Below, one piece after another: positions 14,560-24,423 of a stretch of DNA of 64,000 bases; positions within the stretch are counted from its first letter, which is position 1, and every line of letters starts with the position of its first letter. Made by a program: the position numbers and the translations under genes. The stretch covers positions 1-64,000 of the forward strand of contig JAJZYH010000008.1 of the NCBI GenBank assembly GCA_021798195.1, written 5' to 3'. The stretch comes from Thermoplasmata archaeon. Lineage in GTDB: Archaea > Thermoplasmatota > Thermoplasmata > Lutacidiplasmatales > UBA184. The notes beneath the pieces were generated by a model that saw nothing but the letters and a program-made list of their open reading frames with translations, had not been told where the DNA came from and searched no databases.

Positions 14560-14581
14560 GGCGGATTGTGTGGGCCGGTGC

Positions 14582-15934
14582 GTGACGTCCCCACAGAATC
14601 CCCGTGTGGAGTCCTTCACGCTCCCCAACGGGTTGGACGTGGCGCTCCTCGCCCGCCCCCAGTCTCCGGTGGTCTCCTCCTGGGTCTGGTACCGCGTGGG
14701 CTCCAAGAACGAGACCCCGGGGGCCACGGGCGCCGCCCACTGGCTGGAGCACATGCTGTTCAAGGGATCGCGGAACTACGCGGTGGGGGCCATCGACCGC
14801 GCCATCGTGGAGGCGGGGGGGAACCTCAATGCATTCACCGACACGGACTTCACCGCGTACTTCATCACCGTCCCACGGCAGCATGCCCTGCTGCCCCTCC
14901 GGATCGAATCCGACCGGATGACGGGAGCCACCATCCCCGCCCCCGAGGTGGACAAGGAACGCGAGGTGGTCCTGTCGGAGCGGGAGATGAACGAGAACCA
15001 TCCGGTCTTCCGGGTGGAGGAGGAGATCTTCGCGCTGGCCTTCCATGAACACCCCTATCACTGGGACCCCCTGGGCTACGCCCAGGACATCCGGCGGATC
15101 ACCCGGGACGAGCTCTACCGCTTCTACCGGAGATTCTATGGACCGGCCAACGCGAGCCTCGTCCTTGCGGGCGGATTCGATCCCGGGGAGATCCGACGGG
15201 AGATCCAGAAGCGGTTTGGGGCCATCTCCCACGAGACCGAGGATCCCCGGGTCCCGACGGAGGAGCCTCCCCAGCGGGGAGAGAGAAGGACCACGCTGCG
15301 GGGGCCTGGCTCCACTCCTCTGGTCCGCATCGGATGGCGGGTCCCCTCCGTCCTGTCGCCCACGGCCGCCCGCTTCCTCATGCTGGATCTCTACCTGGGG
15401 GGAGAGATCCCCCTCTATCCCTCGGGGACGAGCTGGGGGCGGTCCCGGGAGCACCCCTCCGCCCGGCTCTACCAGGCCCTCGTGGACACCGGCCTCGCGG
15501 TGAGCGCCGGCAGCGACTGGAGGCCCCGCGTCCACCCCAGTCTGTTCTCGGTCTGGGCCCAGGCCGCACCGGGGGTCTCCCTGGACCGGCTGGAGGAGGC
15601 GGTCCGCGCCGAGGTGGACCGGGTCCGGCGCCGTCGGGTGGACCCGGGGGAGATGGCACGTTTGCGGGCGAAGCTCGTCCAAGGGGCCCGGATGGGCTGG
15701 GAGGGGAGCACCCGATCCGGCTTCCGGCTGGGCTATTTCTGGGCGCTGGGGGGTCGCCACCTGGATCGGGCGGTCCTTCGGGAGTGCCTGCGCCTAAGCC
15801 CCGGGGACATCCGGGAGGCGGCGGAAGAGATCTTCCAGGATGACCGGGCCACGGTGGTCCGCTACGAGGTGGAGCCCCCGCCCCCCGATGGACGGGGCCG
15901 AGGCTCCCGGGTCCCGCGGAGGAGGAGGTCCTGA
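14582..15934 (+). CDS. M16-family zinc metallopeptidase, catalytic partner
   Basis: Insulinase/mitochondrial-processing-peptidase family. The inverted zinc motif is intact: H53-x-x-E56-H57 in AAHWLEHMLFKG, with the distal ligand Glu133 in LSEREMNEN, 76 residues on as the family requires. The 450-residue length fits one M16 half (two M16 domains), and there is no signal peptide. I use GTG 14582, not GTG 14570, because the TTTATA box lies 26 nt before it. The next gene overlaps by one base and encodes a zinc-free M16 homologue, so the pair should form a heterodimer like PqqL-type or MPP enzymes. The substrate is unknown. Confidence 0.88.
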   Translation: MTSPQNPRVESFTLPNGLDVALLARPQSPVVSSWVWYRVGSKNETPGATGAAHWLEHMLFKGSRNYAVGAIDRAIVEAGGNLNAFTDTDFTAYFITVPRQHALLPLRIESDRMTGATIPAPEVDKEREVVLSEREMNENHPVFRVEEEIFALAFHEHPYHWDPLGYAQDIRRITRDELYRFYRRFYGPANASLVLAGGFDPGEIRREIQKRFGAISHETEDPRVPTEEPPQRGERRTTLRGPGSTPLVRIGWRVPSVLSPTAARFLMLDLYLGGEIPLYPSGTSWGRSREHPSARLYQALVDTGLAVSAGSDWRPRVHPSLFSVWAQAAPGVSLDRLEEAVRAEVDRVRRRRVDPGEMARLRAKLVQGARMGWEGSTRSGFRLGYFWALGGRHLDRAVLRECLRLSPGDIREAAEEIFQDDRATVVRYEVEPPPPDGRGRGSRVPRRRRS

Positions 15935-17250
15935 TGCCTCCGGCCCCCGCGCTCCGGAACCCCCTCATCCTGCGGCGGGTGGACTGGGGAGGACCCATGG
16001 ACCTCGTGATCCAGTGGGCGCCCCCGTCGTCGTTGAGCTTCGCGGCTTCCTGGATTGCACCGGCGGGAAGCGCCTTCGATCCTCCCGGCCGGGAAGGCAC
16101 CTCCCTGGCGCTTGGTCGCCTGCTCTCGGCGGGGACCCTCCACCGGGACAAGCGGGCCCTCGCGCGGGACCTCGACCGCCTGGCGGCCGCCATATCGGTC
16201 GACGTTGATTGGGAGTCCGTGGATGTGGAGGTGAGCGGTCCGGCCTCCGCCTGGAGGGAGCTCGTGGCACTCCTTTCGGAGGTGATCCGGGAGCCGGCAC
16301 TGCGCCCCGAGGAGCTCCGACGCGTCTGCCGGGAAGGTCAGGAGGCTCTCCTTCGGGAATCCACGGAGCCGGGTCCCCGTGCGGAGCGGGTGTTCCTGGA
16401 AACGGTCTTCCCCCGGGGTCACCCGTACCATCGGAACCCCCTGGGAACGCCCCGTTCCCTGGGACGCCTTCGTCCCGAGACCGTGCAACGTTTCCATGAA
16501 CGGCACTATACCCCGAGGGGATCCCTCCTCGTGGTGACCACGGACCGGACCGAGGCGGAGCTCCTGCCCGTGATCCGGAAGATGTTCGGGGACTGGGAGG
16601 GGCCCCCGCCACCGCCTCCCCTTCCTCTCCCTCCTCCGGACCATCGGGAGCGGGACCCCGTCTACGCCCCCCTGGAAGGAACGTCCCAGGTGGAGGTGAT
16701 CGTGGGAGGCGCCTCTCCCCCGCGGGCCCACCCGGACTACCCGGCCCTCTTCCTCGCGGACGAGGTCCTGGGGGGACGTCCCCTCCTTTCCCGCCTCTTC
16801 CAGAAGGTCCGGGAACGCGACGCGCTCGCCTATTCCACGGGAAGTGAGCTCGAGGCCCTGCGGTGGTCCGGAATCTTCACGGCGGAGGCCGGTACGAGCC
16901 CCTCCACGGCCGGCCGCGTGGCGGCCATCCTCCGGGATGAGATCCGCCGGCTCGCGGAGGAGCGGATCCCCCGGGACGAACTGGAGCGGATCCGGGAGAG
17001 CTTCCTGGGCAGCATCCCCCTCTCCCTGGAGACCGCCGTCGCGGCCCATGGCCTCGCCACCACCGTAGCCGCCTACGACCTCCCCCTGGATTTCCACGTG
17101 ACGTGGCCCGCGCGGATCCGGAGCCTCTCCCCTCCGGAGATCCGGGAAGCGGTGGCCTCCCACTGGTGGCCCCCAGGAGGACCCATCGTGGTGGCGTCCG
17201 GGCCTCCCAAGGGGGCCTGGAAGGGGACCGTGGGACCGTCCGGCCCCTGA
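15934..17250 (+). CDS. M16-family peptidase homologue, non-catalytic partner
   Basis: A 438-residue M16-fold protein that lacks the HxxEH zinc site in its N-terminal domain (the region reads GREGTSLALGRLLSAG). It keeps the C-terminal R/Y-type substrate loop, VRERDALAYSTGSE, typical of the partner subunit. A proline-rich linker near residue 230 (eleven prolines in about fifteen residues) joins its halves. Its ATG overlaps the upstream stop as TGATG, so translation is coupled to the catalytic subunit. It probably completes the closed peptidase chamber. Confidence 0.85.
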   Translation: MPPAPALRNPLILRRVDWGGPMDLVIQWAPPSSLSFAASWIAPAGSAFDPPGREGTSLALGRLLSAGTLHRDKRALARDLDRLAAAISVDVDWESVDVEVSGPASAWRELVALLSEVIREPALRPEELRRVCREGQEALLRESTEPGPRAERVFLETVFPRGHPYHRNPLGTPRSLGRLRPETVQRFHERHYTPRGSLLVVTTDRTEAELLPVIRKMFGDWEGPPPPPPLPLPPPDHRERDPVYAPLEGTSQVEVIVGGASPPRAHPDYPALFLADEVLGGRPLLSRLFQKVRERDALAYSTGSELEALRWSGIFTAEAGTSPSTAGRVAAILRDEIRRLAEERIPRDELERIRESFLGSIPLSLETAVAAHGLATTVAAYDLPLDFHVTWPARIRSLSPPEIREAVASHWWPPGGPIVVASGPPKGAWKGTVGPSGP

Positions 17251-17450: not shown

Positions 17451-17699
17451 ATGGCACCTGGACACAAGGCGGACCGCGAACCAGCCATGCTCCGGAAGAA
17501 CATCACGATCACCCCCTCCGAGAACGAGTTCCTGGAGAGGCACCCCGAGATCAACCAGAGCGCTCTCTTCCGTCAGGTGGTGGAGAGCCTCATGAAGGCC
17601 GAGAAGGGCCCCAAGTACGCCAGCGTGAGCACCCTCAGGCTGGGGAAGGCCGTCTACCGCAGCGGCGCCGTTCTCTTCAAGCGGAAGTCGAATCTTTAG
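17451..17699 (+). CDS. Small ribbon-helix-helix-like regulator
   Basis: An 82-residue protein. After a short basic leader it reads KNITITPSENEFLERHP, then EINQSALFRQVVESLM: one beta strand followed by two helices, the arrangement of archaeal ribbon-helix-helix repressors. The C-terminal ~30 residues are basic (ends FKRKSNL). ATG 17451 is chosen over ATG 17487 because TATAAATA lies 26 nt upstream. Its 3' end overlaps the converging dtdA gene by 23 bp. It sits head-on to the dtdA/RecA/VirD4-like operon and might regulate it, but that is only a positional suggestion. Confidence 0.75.
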   Translation: MAPGHKADREPAMLRKNITITPSENEFLERHPEINQSALFRQVVESLMKAEKGPKYASVSTLRLGKAVYRSGAVLFKRKSNL

Positions 17700-18522
17700 G
17701 GACCGCGGGCGACCCCCGGGCGGCGAGGGTCCGCTCGGCGATGGTGGGTAGCCAACGGGCGAAGCGCCCTTCCCGGGCCTCCTGGGCGCGGGCGTAGATG
17801 ACTCCGCGGACCCCCGGCGTGCGGGAGACGATCTGTTCCAAGAGCTCCGCCGGAAGCCCCGCCCAGTGATGGCGAGGGATCATGTGCCCGAACGAGGCCT
17901 CACGTCGCCGCGCGAGCTCCCCCCAGTGGGGGACATAGTGCCCCCCTCCCACGCCGATGAGGATGGGATCCTCCCGGGTCCTGGCCACCTCGAGACCGAG
18001 GAGCACCTCGGCCAGGGCGCGGTGCACCTCCCTCCGCGCGAGCGTCGCCGCATCCCCGCCCGCCTCCAGGAAGAAGGAGGGCCAGGGCAGGAACGGCCCG
18101 TGGTGGGTGCACTCGAACGTGGCGGGGATGCCCAGGGCCAGGCCGTGGGGATGAAGCCGCAGGAGCGCTTCCGTCATGAGGCGGGCCGGAACCGGGTTCA
18201 CCTCCCAGGGACGCCCCCCCACGGGGGCCCCGGAGGTGAGGTTCCCCAGGGGATGGACGGTGAGTGCCGGCCGCCCGGCCTCGCTCCGGTGGGAAGAGGG
18301 GAAGATGACGGCCTCCAGCTGGATCCCCACGGTGGGAGGGAGCGCTCCCCCCAACCCCGAATCGTCCACGTGAAGGATGTTCCGATGGAGGACCCACGTC
18401 CCGTCCTCGAGGCTCCGGATCGGCGCCCCGTCCACGAAGAGTCCGGTGGATGCACCGGTCCCCAGCACCTCGCCCACGCCCCGGGCCACCGGATCCTGAA
18501 GGCTCACCACCACGAGCTTCAT
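17677..18522 (-). CDS. dtdA: D-aminoacyl-tRNA deacylase, archaeal type
   Basis: Removes D-amino acids mischarged on tRNA (DTD2/GEK1 family). The 281-residue protein carries the conserved histidine-rich blocks FECTHHGPFLPWPSFF, LIGVGGGHYVPHWGELA and SFGHMIPRHH, which build the zinc-dependent active site. Length is normal. It lies 52 bp downstream of the third RecA-like gene and may ride on that operon. Its stop lies inside the last codons of the converging RHH gene. Confidence 0.93.
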   Translation of the reverse strand: MKLVVVSLQDPVARGVGEVLGTGASTGLFVDGAPIRSLEDGTWVLHRNILHVDDSGLGGALPPTVGIQLEAVIFPSSHRSEAGRPALTVHPLGNLTSGAPVGGRPWEVNPVPARLMTEALLRLHPHGLALGIPATFECTHHGPFLPWPSFFLEAGGDAATLARREVHRALAEVLLGLEVARTREDPILIGVGGGHYVPHWGELARRREASFGHMIPRHHWAGLPAELLEQIVSRTPGVRGVIYARAQEAREGRFARWLPTIAERTLAARGSPAVPKDSTSA

Positions 18523-18574: not shown

Positions 18575-19330
18575 TCACTGGGCCGTGCCGATCCCCTTGG
18601 GGGTGATGGTCACCGGGATGATCCCGGTGCGCTCGGGATGGTTCCGGATCTTCCGGACGTTGATGAAGTGCCGCAGGGTGGCGTGCTCCCGCTCCACCTC
18701 GATGTCCAGGAGCAGGTCCGCGATCTCCTCGAGCGTGCCCGTGGTCTGGTGGTCATGGATGGCCGGATGCACCGTGAGCAGGGCCACGCCTCCCACCCGC
18801 TGCGCCCGGGACCGGATCTGACGGACCAGGGAGATCACCTCCTCCCTCTCGGAGATCTCCAGGAAGAAGTCCAGCGAATCCAGGACCAGCCGGAAGGGCT
18901 GGTCGAAGCCCGCCAGGTCGTAGGTCATGCGCGTCACGAAGTTCACCGGGGGCGCTTCCAGGGACGCCATCTGGAACTCGCTCACCTCCTTCCCCGAGAC
19001 CCCTTTCTCCCGGTACTGGCTCACCTCGAGGTTCCGGGAGAGGACCTTCTCGTAGTACTCATCCGCGATGTTCACCAGGTTCAGGTCGTCCCTCCAGCCG
19101 AAGTCCCGGAGGGCGCTCTTCACGTCCTCGTCCCGCTCGCTGGTGGTGTAGTAGACCACCGGCGTCTTGGGGGCCGCGGCCTGCGCGAACTGCTTCGCCA
19201 GGAGTTCGATCCCGCTCCCGGGGACGCCCGAGAGGATCCCGAGCCACCCCCGGGGGAGCTGGCCCGATAGCTGCTGGTCCACCTCGGGGATGCCGAAGAT
19301 CGCCTCGGCACCCGGGACCTTGGGGGCCAT
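18575..19330 (-). CDS. KaiC/RecA-like protein with degenerate Walker A (third of three)
   Basis: A 251-residue single-domain RecA-superfamily protein. The P-loop position reads GVPGSGIE (residues 35-42), so the essential Lys and Thr/Ser are replaced by Ile and Glu and ATP hydrolysis is unlikely. The Walker B-like strand is kept (FRLVLDSLDFFLE), as is the family segment VYYTTSERDEDV. The C-terminal part ends in beta-rich HFINVRKIRNHPERTG, typical of KaiC-like domains. Its ATG shares one base with the preceding gene's stop. A structural or regulatory subunit of a hetero-oligomer is the best guess. Confidence 0.82.
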   Translation of the reverse strand: MAPKVPGAEAIFGIPEVDQQLSGQLPRGWLGILSGVPGSGIELLAKQFAQAAAPKTPVVYYTTSERDEDVKSALRDFGWRDDLNLVNIADEYYEKVLSRNLEVSQYREKGVSGKEVSEFQMASLEAPPVNFVTRMTYDLAGFDQPFRLVLDSLDFFLEISEREEVISLVRQIRSRAQRVGGVALLTVHPAIHDHQTTGTLEEIADLLLDIEVEREHATLRHFINVRKIRNHPERTGIIPVTITPKGIGTAQ

Positions 19331-19929
19331 CAGCCGGCCTCCCCGGTCGCCTTCAGGACCACGGTGTCGTCGCAGACCAGGGACAGGATGTTGTCCATCT
19401 CCGGGCTCATCTCCTCCGCGACCGCGAGGATCACGATGGTGATGCCCCGGGATTTGAGGTTATTCACCATGATATGGAAGAATTCCGACAGGATCCCCGC
19501 GTCGTTGTGGATGGAGAGCGAGTTCACCGAATCCAGGACCACGATCTTGCGCGCCGCGGAACTCTTCCGGAGGAAGTACTCCACCCGGAGCATGATGTTC
19601 TCGAGCATCGTGGGGCTCTCCACGTAGCTCGCATTGGGGATCTTCTCCTGTCCCGCCATCATGATGTGGCTGATGGCGTCCACGAAGAACACCCGGTCGG
19701 CGGGGATGTCCAGGGATGTGAGGAGGGAGTTCACCAGCAGGGAAGGGTTCGTGATGGAGACGTAGATGGAATACCCGTCCACCTCCATGGCGTAATCCCG
19801 AAGGACCGCAGCGAGCGCCGCAAGGTAGTTGTCCGCGTATGCGGCGCCCCCCATCTTGAGGGCCAGGGCGCCTCCCTGGGGGAGGTTCCTCAGGTGCTCC
19901 GCCACGTCCACCGGATTCGCCGTCGCCAT
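19330..19929 (-). CDS. RecA-fold protein lacking Walker A (second of three)
   Basis: A 199-residue protein similar in layout to its two neighbours, but the N-terminal P-loop segment is replaced by GGALALKMGGAAYADN, with no GxxxxGK[ST]. The core strands remain: SIYVSITNPSLLVNSLL, RVFFVDAIS, and the Walker B-like KIVVLDSVNSLS, followed by ITIVILAV. It is shorter than the usual 230-260 residues. One base separates it from the upstream KaiC-like stop, and it overlaps the next ATG by one base. Probably a pseudo-ATPase that assembles with the intact paralogue. Confidence 0.8.
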   Translation of the reverse strand: MATANPVDVAEHLRNLPQGGALALKMGGAAYADNYLAALAAVLRDYAMEVDGYSIYVSITNPSLLVNSLLTSLDIPADRVFFVDAISHIMMAGQEKIPNASYVESPTMLENIMLRVEYFLRKSSAARKIVVLDSVNSLSIHNDAGILSEFFHIMVNNLKSRGITIVILAVAEEMSPEMDNILSLVCDDTVVLKATGEAG

Positions 19930-19930
19930 C

Positions 19931-20710
19931 TCACAACCCGTCCCCGGAACGGCCCCCCTTCAGGAATGGTGCCAGGAGGATCCCCAGCGGAGTGAGGTCG
20001 ATCACGTACTGGGCCCGCGAATGCGTGGTTCCCCGCATCTTGATGATCTTGAGCGTCCGCAGGAGGTCCCCCCGCCTCTGCTGGTTCCCCAGGAGGATGA
20101 CCCCGTCGGCGATGGCTTCCTCCACGCCGTAGAGGGAATACCGGTTCTCCGCCGGCCCGATCTCGCTCACCAAAAGCGTCGTGCAGGAGATGTCCGAGAG
20201 GGACTTGCCCAGCTTCAGGATCAGGTCCCGGATGTTCTCCTCGTGCCGGATCCGGTAGCAGACCGACGTGATGGAGTCCAGCACGAGGCGCTGCACGCCC
20301 ATGTCCGAGGCGAGCCGGGAGATGGCCAGGACCAGGAGGTTCACGTCCTCCGAGGAGAGTTCCTCCTTCGACAGGCCCAGCTTCTCGTACAGGATGGGCA
20401 CGTCGATGAAGACCAGCTTCCTCTCCTCCACGGTCCGGGGGTCGAAGAACTCGAACGTCGCCAGGTTCTGGAGGATCTTCCGCGAGGCCTCGGTCACCGA
20501 GAGGAACAGGCACCGTTCCCCGGCGAGGGCGCCCCGGACCAGGTACTCCAGGCTGAGGGTCGTCTTGCCCGTCCCGCAGCTCCCCGAGACCAGGACCGTG
20601 TTCCCGCGGGGGATCCCCCCGTCCAGGATGTTGTCGAGGCCCTCGATCCCGGTCCGGCAACGCTCCAGCACCGTGGGCCCCGCGGGGGCGGTCCCCATCG
20701 CAGCCGACAC
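19931..20710 (-). CDS. KaiC-like RecA-superfamily ATPase (first of three, intact)
   Basis: A 259-residue single KaiC domain. Walker A is complete, GSCGTGKT at residues 43-50, preceded by the family opener TGIEGLDNILDGGIPRGN; Walker B is RLVLDSITSVCYRIR. The C-terminus carries KIIKMRGTTHSRAQYVIDLTP, the strand-turn that in KaiC-type proteins reads out nucleotide state (KMRGTxHS). It is the only member of this gene trio that can be expected to hydrolyse ATP. It starts 17 bp after the VirD4-like ATPase. Related archaeal proteins include ArlH and circadian KaiC; no archaellum genes occur in this window. Confidence 0.87.
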   Translation of the reverse strand: MSAAMGTAPAGPTVLERCRTGIEGLDNILDGGIPRGNTVLVSGSCGTGKTTLSLEYLVRGALAGERCLFLSVTEASRKILQNLATFEFFDPRTVEERKLVFIDVPILYEKLGLSKEELSSEDVNLLVLAISRLASDMGVQRLVLDSITSVCYRIRHEENIRDLILKLGKSLSDISCTTLLVSEIGPAENRYSLYGVEEAIADGVILLGNQQRRGDLLRTLKIIKMRGTTHSRAQYVIDLTPLGILLAPFLKGGRSGDGL

Positions 20711-20726
20711 GGGGGCATCCTACGGC

Positions 20727-23243
20727 TCAAGTGTCCTTGAAGGTATCGTCCGGTGCGAGGGGAGGTCCCTCCGGAACGGGAGGGAGAGTCCCGGGAAGGG
20801 GCTCGTGCTTCACCCACCAGATACGGCGGGGGCCCGACCCCTCGGTGCGGACGAGGATTCCCGCCGCGTGGAGGCGCCGGCCCAGTTCCCGAACATCTTC
20901 CGTCCGCTCTCCCAAGAGGTCCCGGACACGGGAGAGCGGGAGCCTCTTCACCTCGGATCCCACAGGTTCGTCGAGGCCGCACCGGATCGCCTCCCATACC
21001 GCACGCAACCCTTCGTCCCGCCCTTCGAGGGGCGGGGGATCGGGCGCCCCCGGGGCCTGGGGGCCCCACAGATCAGGTGACCAATGTTTCCGGGACCCCT
21101 CCGCGATGTCCCACGGCTCGGGTGTTGGGACCAGGGAGGAGCCCCTTTCCCACGCGGACTCGGGACGGAGCGGCACCTGGCGCGTGCCCTTTCCCAGGAA
21201 GGCGATGGCCACGTGCGAGGGCAGCGCCGCGAGGCGGGAGGGTCCGTCCAAACCGAACATCTTCGCCGACGCTTCCGCCTCCATCCCCGCGCCCCGGAAG
21301 CAGACAAAGTCCCGCACGTTGGTCCAGACCGTCTCCCGGAGGGGGGCCGGGACCGCCGCCAGGGATTGCGTGGTCATGATCACATGGATGTTGTGGCGCC
21401 GACCCAGCCGCAGGAGGTCCAAGAGCGCGTCGTTCACATACTCCTGCACCTCGTCCAGGAACAGGAGGACCTTGGGCCCGGACCCCCTGCGTTGGACGGC
21501 GGACCAGAGCAGGGCGAGAAGGAGAGAGCCCAGGTAGGCACTGGGCCGGGTGCCCACCTTCCCCCGCGCGAGGCTGAGGAAGGTGGTGGATCCCCGCTCC
21601 AGGGCGCGTCCCAGGTCCCACGTGGGGGACGGGTGGCACAGGATCCGCGCGATCCCGTCGGAAAGCATGAGTTCCCGCAACACCCGACGGGCCCCTTCAA
21701 GGGCTTCGGGAGGTTCTTCCCGCAACGAAGCGAGAAGAGCTCTGGGTTCCGGCATCCCGCCCAGCGTGTCCCCGCAGAGTCCGGAGAATTCCGCCGGATC
21801 CTCAAGGACGGCCAGGGCGTCTCGGAGCGTACCGCCCGGGACCCAGGAGGCGAGGTTCAACACACGCCCCAGCACGTCTTCGAGGCGGGGTCCCCAGAAG
21901 ACCACCTCATCGAACCTCTCGGCACGGACCCTGTGGAGCGCCGAGACCAGTTCCTGGACGCGCGCCTGCCGTTCCGCCCGGGGTGAGGCGGCGGGGTCGC
22001 GCGATCCCGCGGACAAAAGTGGGTTCACCCCCACGGGCGAACGGACCGGATCCACGAGGACCGCGTGAGCCCTGCGTCCCGGGGGCAGTTCCCGAAGGAG
22101 TCCGGTCACGAAGTCCCCGATGGGATCCAACACCACGAGCGCCCAATCCCGCGCGGCGCTCTGACGGAAGATGGCGCGGAGGAGACTGCTCTTTCCCATC
22201 CCCGTTTCCCCCGTGATGATGAGATGGTGGCCTTCCCATCCCGCGACCTCCCACCGGACCGGATCCCCCGTGGGAGAGGACCCCAGGCGGATCCCCACGT
22301 TCCCCGGCATCGCATCCGGGGCGGGCACGCCGTTCCAGTTCCCCGTCGAGGGAGGCAGCCAAGCCATCACCTCCGGTGAGCCCAGGGTGAGGGGGGGGTG
22401 GCCGAAGGACGTGGGGGGCATGCCCAACTCCCGGGCCCGCTGGCAAACCCTCTCCGCTTCCCGCCTCCGCCGGATCCACCGGACCCGTACTCCCCCACCT
22501 CCCGGGTGGGAGGAGATCTGGGCGAGGAGCCGGGCCATGGCCTCCATGGGCTCCGCGGGATGGTCCCGGGACCCTCCCACGATGATCCCGACGGCGGACC
22601 AGTGGGGCCCCAACGCCTTCTCCTCCGACACTTCCTCGAGGTCCCTTGCCAGGGGGTTTGTCGCCGGCACCGGGAGGGGGGTCTTGCGGTCCTCCCGGGG
22701 CAGTGGGCCCTGTCGGCCCCGGAAGGCGGGATGCGAGGGCCCCACGGGGTGGAAGATCCATCGGAGCGTCCACGGGCTTGGTTCCCGGGAGACGGCCCGA
22801 ACCCAGGAGAGCCAAGGTTCCGGACGACCATCCTGCGGGTCGATGCCCCTCACGGGGACATCCATCCGGTAATGAGTGCGGGATTCCAGGACTCCCACCG
22901 CCCCGGGGCGAAGTTCCGATGCGGGTACCCGCTCCCAGAACCACGCCCCGCAATGGGGGAGGAGGACCCGTTTCAGGAAGGTGGCGGACCCCTCCGGGCA
23001 GATCAGCCGGATTTCGGGGGTGAAGGCCCCGCCGGCCGTCACCTCGATCCCCCACGGCCCGCCCCGTGTGTGCAGGAGGTCCACCACCTCCCTGCGTTCC
23101 CCTCGGGCCTTGAGGTCCGCCGACGGTGAGAGGAGGGGGACTCCCGGTCGACCTCTCAGGTGGGTGAGGAGGAGGGCGTCCGGAGGATGGCCCCGAGGAA
23201 ACGACCCAATGAACCGGAACGGCCCCCGCCATGGTCCGGCCAT
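20727..23243 (-). CDS. VirD4/HerA-like DNA- or protein-pumping ATPase
   Basis: An 838-residue P-loop ATPase of the FtsK/HerA superfamily. A ~330-residue N-terminal region without recognisable domain is followed by Walker A TGETGMGKSS (near 343-352), a variable insertion, Walker B LLFLDEVQEYV (near 596), and MTTQSLAAVP (near 626), whose TTQS is the sensor-like motif of TraD/VirD4-type coupling proteins. The C-terminal ~100 residues look like a winged helix (LPLSRVRDLLGERTEDVRELGRRL). I start at ATG 23243: the upstream extension is low-complexity, and an ATTAAT box lies 25 nt before this codon. No relaxase, VirB or pilus genes are nearby. It heads the operon with three RecA-like genes. Confidence 0.83.
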   Translation of the reverse strand: MAGPWRGPFRFIGSFPRGHPPDALLLTHLRGRPGVPLLSPSADLKARGERREVVDLLHTRGGPWGIEVTAGGAFTPEIRLICPEGSATFLKRVLLPHCGAWFWERVPASELRPGAVGVLESRTHYRMDVPVRGIDPQDGRPEPWLSWVRAVSREPSPWTLRWIFHPVGPSHPAFRGRQGPLPREDRKTPLPVPATNPLARDLEEVSEEKALGPHWSAVGIIVGGSRDHPAEPMEAMARLLAQISSHPGGGGVRVRWIRRRREAERVCQRARELGMPPTSFGHPPLTLGSPEVMAWLPPSTGNWNGVPAPDAMPGNVGIRLGSSPTGDPVRWEVAGWEGHHLIITGETGMGKSSLLRAIFRQSAARDWALVVLDPIGDFVTGLLRELPPGRRAHAVLVDPVRSPVGVNPLLSAGSRDPAASPRAERQARVQELVSALHRVRAERFDEVVFWGPRLEDVLGRVLNLASWVPGGTLRDALAVLEDPAEFSGLCGDTLGGMPEPRALLASLREEPPEALEGARRVLRELMLSDGIARILCHPSPTWDLGRALERGSTTFLSLARGKVGTRPSAYLGSLLLALLWSAVQRRGSGPKVLLFLDEVQEYVNDALLDLLRLGRRHNIHVIMTTQSLAAVPAPLRETVWTNVRDFVCFRGAGMEAEASAKMFGLDGPSRLAALPSHVAIAFLGKGTRQVPLRPESAWERGSSLVPTPEPWDIAEGSRKHWSPDLWGPQAPGAPDPPPLEGRDEGLRAVWEAIRCGLDEPVGSEVKRLPLSRVRDLLGERTEDVRELGRRLHAAGILVRTEGSGPRRIWWVKHEPLPGTLPPVPEGPPLAPDDTFKDT

Positions 23244-23301: not shown

Positions 23302-24423
23302 ATGGGGGCCATCGACGACGAGATCCTCCGCCTGGAGGACGAGATCCGGAACACGCAGTACAACAAGGCCACCCAGGGGCACATCGGCCGCCTCCGGGCC
23401 AAGATCGCCGCGCTCAAGCTGGAGAAGGAGAAGCGGGCCCGGGGCACCGGGGGAGGACCTTCGGGGTACGCCGTGCGCAAGAGCGGACACGCCACCGTCG
23501 CCCTCGTGGGGTACCCCTCGGTGGGCAAGTCCACCCTGCTCACGCACCTCACGGGAGCCGAGAGCGAGTCCGCGGCCTACGAGTTCACCACCGTGAGCAT
23601 CATCCCGGGGATGCTGCAGTGGAAGGGGGCCTCCATCCAGATCCTGGACATGCCCGGCCTCGTGGCGGGAGCCTCCCGGGGGCGCGGGAGGGGCCGGGAG
23701 GTGATCTCCGTGGTGCGGGCCTCCGACCTCGTCCTCTTCATGCTGGACAAGGAACACCTCGAGTTCCGTTCGCTCCTCGCCGAGCTCGAGGGGGCGGGCG
23801 TCCGCGTGAACCAGCGGCCGCCCAAGATCTCGGTCACCCACCGGGACCGGGGGGGACTCGAGGTGGAGAGCACGGTGCGCCTCACGAAGGTGGACGCCGA
23901 CCTGGTGAAGCAGGTGGCGCGGGAGTTCGGGCTCCACAACGGCCTCATCATCTTCCGGGAGGACGCCCCCGTGGATTCGCTCATCGACGTCCTCGCCGGC
24001 AACCGGGTCTACGTCCCCGGGATCCTCGCCATCAACAAGTCCGACCTCATCTCGCCCGCGGAACGGGCCTCCATCCTGGAGCGCCTGGGGAGCCATCGGC
24101 CCATCTTCGTGTCTGCCACCTCGGATCAGGGTCTCACGGAACTCAAGGACCGGATCGCCGAGGTCCTCGCGTTCATCCGGGTCTACATGAAGCCCCCGGG
24201 AGAGGCCCCCGACCTGGTGGAGCCGCTCATCCTCCGGAAAGGGGACACGGTGGCCTCGCTCCTCCTCCGCCTCCCTCCCGAGACCACCCAGGGTTTCAAG
24301 GCGGCCCAGGTCTGGGGCCCCAGCGCCCGCTTCCCCGGTCAAACGGTGGGGAAGGACCACGTCCTGGCGGACCGGGACATCGTCACCGTGGTCATCCAGC
24401 GCGGTTCCCGCCCCGAGAGGTGA
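23302..24423 (+). CDS. DRG-family GTPase
   Basis: Developmentally regulated GTP-binding protein homologue, a translation-associated OBG-class GTPase. In 373 residues: an N-terminal basic helical segment (about 1-60), G1 GYPSVGKST (70-78), G3 DMPGL, G4 NKSD and G5 SATS, and a C-terminal TGS domain (from about residue 290, ending DRDIVTVVIQR). This domain order is that of DRG1/DRG2 and their archaeal orthologues. The 3' end overlaps the converging fibrillarin gene by 32 bp. Confidence 0.93.
   Translation: MGAIDDEILRLEDEIRNTQYNKATQGHIGRLRAKIAALKLEKEKRARGTGGGPSGYAVRKSGHATVALVGYPSVGKSTLLTHLTGAESESAAYEFTTVSIIPGMLQWKGASIQILDMPGLVAGASRGRGRGREVISVVRASDLVLFMLDKEHLEFRSLLAELEGAGVRVNQRPPKISVTHRDRGGLEVESTVRLTKVDADLVKQVAREFGLHNGLIIFREDAPVDSLIDVLAGNRVYVPGILAINKSDLISPAERASILERLGSHRPIFVSATSDQGLTELKDRIAEVLAFIRVYMKPPGEAPDLVEPLILRKGDTVASLLLRLPPETTQGFKAAQVWGPSARFPGQTVGKDHVLADRDIVTVVIQRGSRPER

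Follow-up and report, generated by a model that had tools for sequence, protein, structure and literature searches.

A run of four genes in a 1.75 Mb archaeal genome of the Thermoplasmata raises the question of whether a HerA-like ATPase and three KaiC-like proteins are parts of one machine, as the preliminary description had supposed, or whether the conserved unit is a smaller one. The window, i.e., the whole stretch of 64,000 nucleotides that was analysed, harbors the four genes as intact open frames in a single head-to-tail run on the minus strand (18575-23243). The run and its two flanking genes are organized as follows:

17677..18522, minus strand: D-aminoacyl-tRNA deacylase gene on the flank, without a conserved link to the cassette
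18575..19330, minus strand: K3, KaiC-like protein, 251 aa, with a degenerate P-loop (lysine lost) and, in most relatives, K-x-R-N-x-P near the C-terminus
19330..19929, minus strand: K2, KaiC/RecA-fold protein, 199 aa, without Walker A, the phylum-wide marker of the cassette
19931..20710, minus strand: K1, KaiC-like single-domain ATPase, 259 aa, with an intact Walker A (GSCGTGKT) and a KMRGTTHS motif
20727..23243, minus strand: VirB4/TrwB/HerA-class ATPase, 838 aa, with a P-loop, a Walker B DE and a TQ motif conserved in the family
23302..24423, plus strand: DRG/Obg-type GTPase gene on the divergent flank, conserved in the family as a neighbour of the 838-aa ATPase (shared gene order)

The composition and the order of the four genes, as originally described, are borne out, since sister genera have orthologues of all of them, arranged alike, far beyond chance. 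The spacing of 17, 1 and -1 bp is correct for the last two values (1 nt and a 1-nt overlap, TGATG), the first gap measuring 16 nt. Relaxase, toxin and integrase genes are indeed absent from the cassette in the window, and those of its neighbours that were scanned with Pfam are housekeeping genes. Further along the window (14570-17250, plus strand), the sequence reveals two adjoining M16-type peptidase-like genes with a 1-base overlap, the first of which has an HxxEH-like motif.

The three smaller proteins belong to the KaiC fold to a different extent. The Pfam family PF06745 (KaiC, cut-off 26.6 bits) is matched by K1 (E 2e-53, 181.5 bits) and K3 (E 3e-18, 66.5 bits), while K2 stays slightly under the cut-off (E 1.4e-5, 25.1 bits); the structure predicted for K2 (pLDDT 86, pTM 0.87) is nevertheless KaiC-like and matches KaiC and PH0284. 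The Walker A motif is present in 76/76 K1 loci, 0/78 K2 and 0/66 K3, in agreement with the reading of the trio as one KaiC-type ATPase and two pseudo-ATPase paralogues. The P-loop of K3 is degenerate, the Walker A lysine being gone, and a K-x-[RK]-N-x-P-like motif is found in at least 51 of the 66 K3 sequences. K1 consists of a single domain, unlike the double domain of circadian KaiC, and its scores against the circadian KaiC equivalogs (155 bits versus a cut-off of 408, and 113 versus 546) fall short. Neither K1 (31.7 bits) nor K3 (47.3) reaches the NCBIfam cut-off for ArlH (215 bits), and no match for K2 or K3 was found in PHROGs or PADLOC.

The distribution of these genes reveals that the conserved module is the trio K1-K2-K3 and not the foursome, and that the trio is an ancient cassette of the Thermoplasmatota. 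The order K1-K2(-K3) is kept in more than 30 families of the phylum, several classes among them, with changing flanks; the K2 profile was detected in 178/300 genomes and 57/90 genera of the class, as well as in 94/194 genomes of the phylum, many of them outside the class. Without exception, K2 directly follows K1 in the 37 class loci from outside the window's own family (22 families), and K3 comes next in nearly all of those whose contig continues. The same arrangement is shared by most of 20 further loci, of which 16 are labelled only as belonging to the same phylum and four come from remote families of the class. Because the trio extends so far beyond the ATPase, the four genes together are rejected as a conserved unit. 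Two of the loci (L218 and L219) contain K2 without an adjoining K1. A co-oriented gene lies ahead of K1 in three loci of other classes (L224:5613-6686, L226:5979-7082 and L237:3538-4617); its product of about 360 aa combines a pilin-like hydrophobic start with a lamin-tail domain (PF00932).

As for the surroundings of the trio, type IV pilin genes lie directly downstream of it, on the same strand, in 23 of the 57 loci outside the window's family, representing 16 families (16/37 class loci from 11 families and 7/20 further loci from five more). Pilins were called by the archaellin/pilin N-terminus motif, and Pilin_N scored over its cut-off in the three examples tested. Given 3-15 pilins per genome, this adjacency would be expected by chance in 0.1-0.6 of the 57 loci; although loci of the same family do not count as independent, the count by family is equally extreme. 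The same motif search disclosed no pilins elsewhere in those 57 loci. In six loci of the families f9 (L184, L190), f22 and f30 (L231, L232, L233, L235), pilin genes directly follow K2 with no K3 in between; K3 can thus be missing while the K1-K2-pilin arrangement persists. At two loci of a family from another class (f55), the archaeal prepilin peptidase PF06847 is found nearby, over the cut-off in L237 and slightly under it in L224. The absence of pilus genes, reported in the preliminary description, holds for the window but not for the trio in many loci elsewhere; the motif search found no pilin near the trio in the window or in 29 loci of its own family, and in over half of the loci from other families the trio likewise has none beside it. 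In the window's genome, three Pilin_N and two T2SSF matches are located away from the trio.

A similar association is observed at the level of whole genomes, with counts that are not corrected for phylogeny. Among the 178 class genomes with K2, Pilin_N is present in 171 and T2SSF in 169, and none has neither; the corresponding figures for the 122 class genomes without K2 are 61 and 74 (about 242-243 class genomes being T2SSF-positive in this co-occurrence test). Pilins and T2SSF are present and K2 is absent in 51 genomes outside the window's family, so that pili do not need the trio.

The fourth gene has a much narrower distribution. Among 61 relatives, strong matches to the 838-aa ATPase come only from the window's own GTDB family, and outside it three genomes give partial matches (E 1e-12 to 1e-23, 23-26% identical). 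Pfam assigns its P-loop to the FtsK/HerA/TrwB class, and the TTQS falls in a [TA]TQ motif kept in nearly all relatives, in agreement with the proposed FtsK/HerA-class motor; the exact N-terminus is uncertain because the N-terminal part is poorly conserved. The AlphaFold2 model (28 sequences, pLDDT 78.5, pTM 0.64) shows, from a reading of its secondary structure, a motor that carries a helical insertion at about 421-548, preceded by an alpha/beta part at the N-terminus and followed by a domain resembling a winged helix at the C-terminus. The top Foldseek matches are TrwK/VirB4 (E 1e-13, with a TM of only 0.39-0.43 over at least 800 columns), followed by DndH, HerA and TrwB in the motor domain, the last with a TM of 0.6 on the target side. 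The NCBIfam VirB4 score is far under the cut-off, no HerA repair equivalog is listed for the protein in NCBIfam, and the DUF87 match is limited to the P-loop stretch. The hydropathy profile contains no transmembrane-like stretch, the highest 19-residue value (1.19) lying inside the motor, so that the N-terminal anchor of VirD4/TrwB is missing and the idea of a "membrane-anchored" pump with a KaiC ring as its gate finds no support. The 838-aa protein is best described as a predicted soluble motor of the VirB4/TrwB/HerA class and a later, family-specific neighbour of the trio. Its predicted fold matches that of VirB4/TrwK over most of its length (TM about 0.43), and its motor domain those of TrwB, DndH and HerA; it differs from type IV secretion ATPases and HerA in the lack of a membrane anchor, in the low whole-length TM, and in having no type IV secretion, relaxase or NurA genes as neighbours. 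Another HerA/TraD-class ATPase, 969 aa long, is encoded in the window's genome (L064:7779-10688, on G000:C52), with weak matches to the CedD/CedB profiles, and paralogues like it occur in most genomes of the family.

The adjacency of ATPase and trio is restricted to the window's own family, in which it was observed in all seven genera. The neighbourhoods from 29 genomes show a recurring order, i.e., L10-P1-PurF-Nop56-fibrillarin-DRG (divergent)-ATPase-trio; since the adjacency is embedded in this longer inherited gene order, it is less telling about function than it appears. In 22/29 loci, ATPase and trio share one piece, and the gap between the ATPase and K1 is 0-228 nt in 16 of these and about 600 nt in two, a gene intervening in the remaining four. 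In 22 further genomes, the ATPase match and the K2 match are 861-932 nt apart, corresponding to K1 plus a short gap. In many members of the family, the ATPase is probably co-transcribed with the trio. Both were searched for in 62 family genomes: 48 contain the ATPase and the trio, eight neither, three the ATPase only (G025, G032, G249) and three the trio only (G004, G016, G270). The trio-only genomes carry it at or near a contig end, and the ATPase may be missing only from the assembly. The small genomes of one genus may have lost both in one step, and gaps in an assembly likewise take out neighbouring genes together.

Of the six testable genera, five or six are recovered in each of the phylogenetic trees of K1, K2, K3, the ATPase and DRG (23 taxa, 19 of them for DRG). 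The tree lengths are 4.6 for K1, 5.2 for K2, 9.8 for K3, 3.7 for DRG and 19.2 for the ATPase, whose rate of evolution is about four times that of K1. The ATPase has been inherited vertically with the region, but under weaker constraint. In two genomes from two genera of the family (G019 and G020), the ATPase gene is split at the LDEVQ[DE]YA codons just past Walker B, the C-terminal pieces lying within L238:7400-9572 (minus strand) and L239:7477-9576 and the N-terminal ones in L040 and L245. Immediately before the C-terminal piece by the trio lies a gene for a tyrosine-recombinase-like protein of 435 aa, with 64% identity between the two genomes, and the two junctions share a core around CAGGA[CG]TA; the split and the adjacent recombinase suggest that an integrative element uses the ATPase gene as its attachment site. 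A mobile-element boundary, which had been considered as a possible objection to the cassette, is not seen in the window, but in these two genomes it appears to fall inside the ATPase gene.

According to the reading first proposed, the four proteins would form one machine, in which a HerA/VirB4-type motor moves DNA or protein and is gated by a KaiC-like ring. The adjacency in all seven genera of the family, in many cases with only 0-45 nt in between, the joint presence or absence of ATPase and trio in 56 of the 62 genomes, and the monophyly of most genera across all gene trees are in its favour. However, the trio exists without the motor in more than 30 other families and the motor without the trio in G025, G032 and G249; genes intervene or the arrangement is relocated in G013, G026, G030, G005 and G008. 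The joint absences are partly expected from the loss of one stretch or from one assembly gap, and the difference in evolutionary rate between the motor and K1 speaks against a single complex as well. On balance, one machine of four is unlikely. A part in a defence system, as a Mad8-like component, would agree with the best profile match of the ATPase (PADLOC mad8, E 2e-21), but this match spans only the ATPase core (residues 318-694), and the gene has an ordinary chromosomal setting with translation genes, is vertically inherited through the family and, far from being patchy, occupies the same place in 30/37 family genomes of one sample; a defence function is highly improbable. It is also very unlikely that the pilus-linked trio and the VirB4/HerA-class motor constitute, in this family, a pilus-coupled apparatus for DNA transfer or uptake, which would be analogous to the Ced system of Sulfolobales though different in composition.

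It is known that KaiC-like proteins accompany type IV filament systems in Archaea: ArlH (FlaH) has been proposed to act as a switch of the archaellum motor via ATP binding and autophosphorylation (PMC8978795); the KaiC-family ATPases arCOG01171, 01174 and 01175 have been associated with archaeal type IV pili (Makarova 2016, PMC4858521); and CirA, a KaiC homologue of Haloferax volcanii, is implicated in the regulation of pilin-mediated motility and in cell shape (cited in PMC13286277). Like ArlH, the trio is a KaiC/RecA-fold system tied to a type IV filament, and like the three arCOG families its genes occur near pilus genes. However, it has two additional pseudo-ATPase subunits, K1 and K3 score far under the ArlH cut-off, and archaellum genes are reportedly absent from Lutacidiplasmatales (PMC9287336). 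On the analogy with ArlH, CirA and the pilus-adjacent KaiC families, the best explanation is that the trio acts on archaeal type IV pili of the PilA kind, as a regulator or in their assembly, a role to which we assign about an even chance. Alternatively, the trio might be a general KaiC-type signalling module, pilins being one of several outputs placed behind it. The many loci without a pilin neighbour, including all those of the window's family, are consistent with such a module, and a role as general signalling hubs has been suggested for KaiC-like proteins of archaea (Makarova 2017, as cited); yet pilins directly downstream in 16 families, and the lack of any class genome that has K2 but neither pilus marker, argue against it, and we consider it possible but clearly less probable than the pilus-specific role.

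If the trio does act on pili, K1 would bind ATP and probably hydrolyse it and/or autophosphorylate; K3 has no ATP site but mostly retains a K-x-R like the one that reaches the neighbour's nucleotide in KaiC-type rings; and K2, with neither the site nor the motif, would serve as an adaptor. In the simplest model, the three would assemble into a mixed ring, whose nucleotide state would set the engagement of the pilus motor or platform, or pilin expression. Both the formation of a ring and the regulation of pili are inferred, whereas the conserved order and its distribution, the loss of the P-loops, the adjacency to pilins, the co-occurrence with pilus genes, the modelled fold of K2 and the class of the motor are observed. 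What is known already is that KaiC-family proteins are linked to archaeal pili; what is new, relative to the parts of the literature that were available, is a phylum-wide cassette with two pseudo-ATPases. The available text of PMC4858521 names single KaiC genes and does not describe a phylum-wide three-gene order with two subunits devoid of Walker A, and CirA is presented in that of PMC13286277 as one protein, with no mention of pseudo-ATPase partners, while the trio has two. The preservation throughout the phylum of a KaiC-type ATPase with two partners lacking an ATP site suggests a mixed KaiC ring, of which no description was found in the portions of the literature consulted. If this is true, the trio would be a candidate regulator of type IV pili for the uncultured Thermoplasmatota, with K2 as its marker gene.
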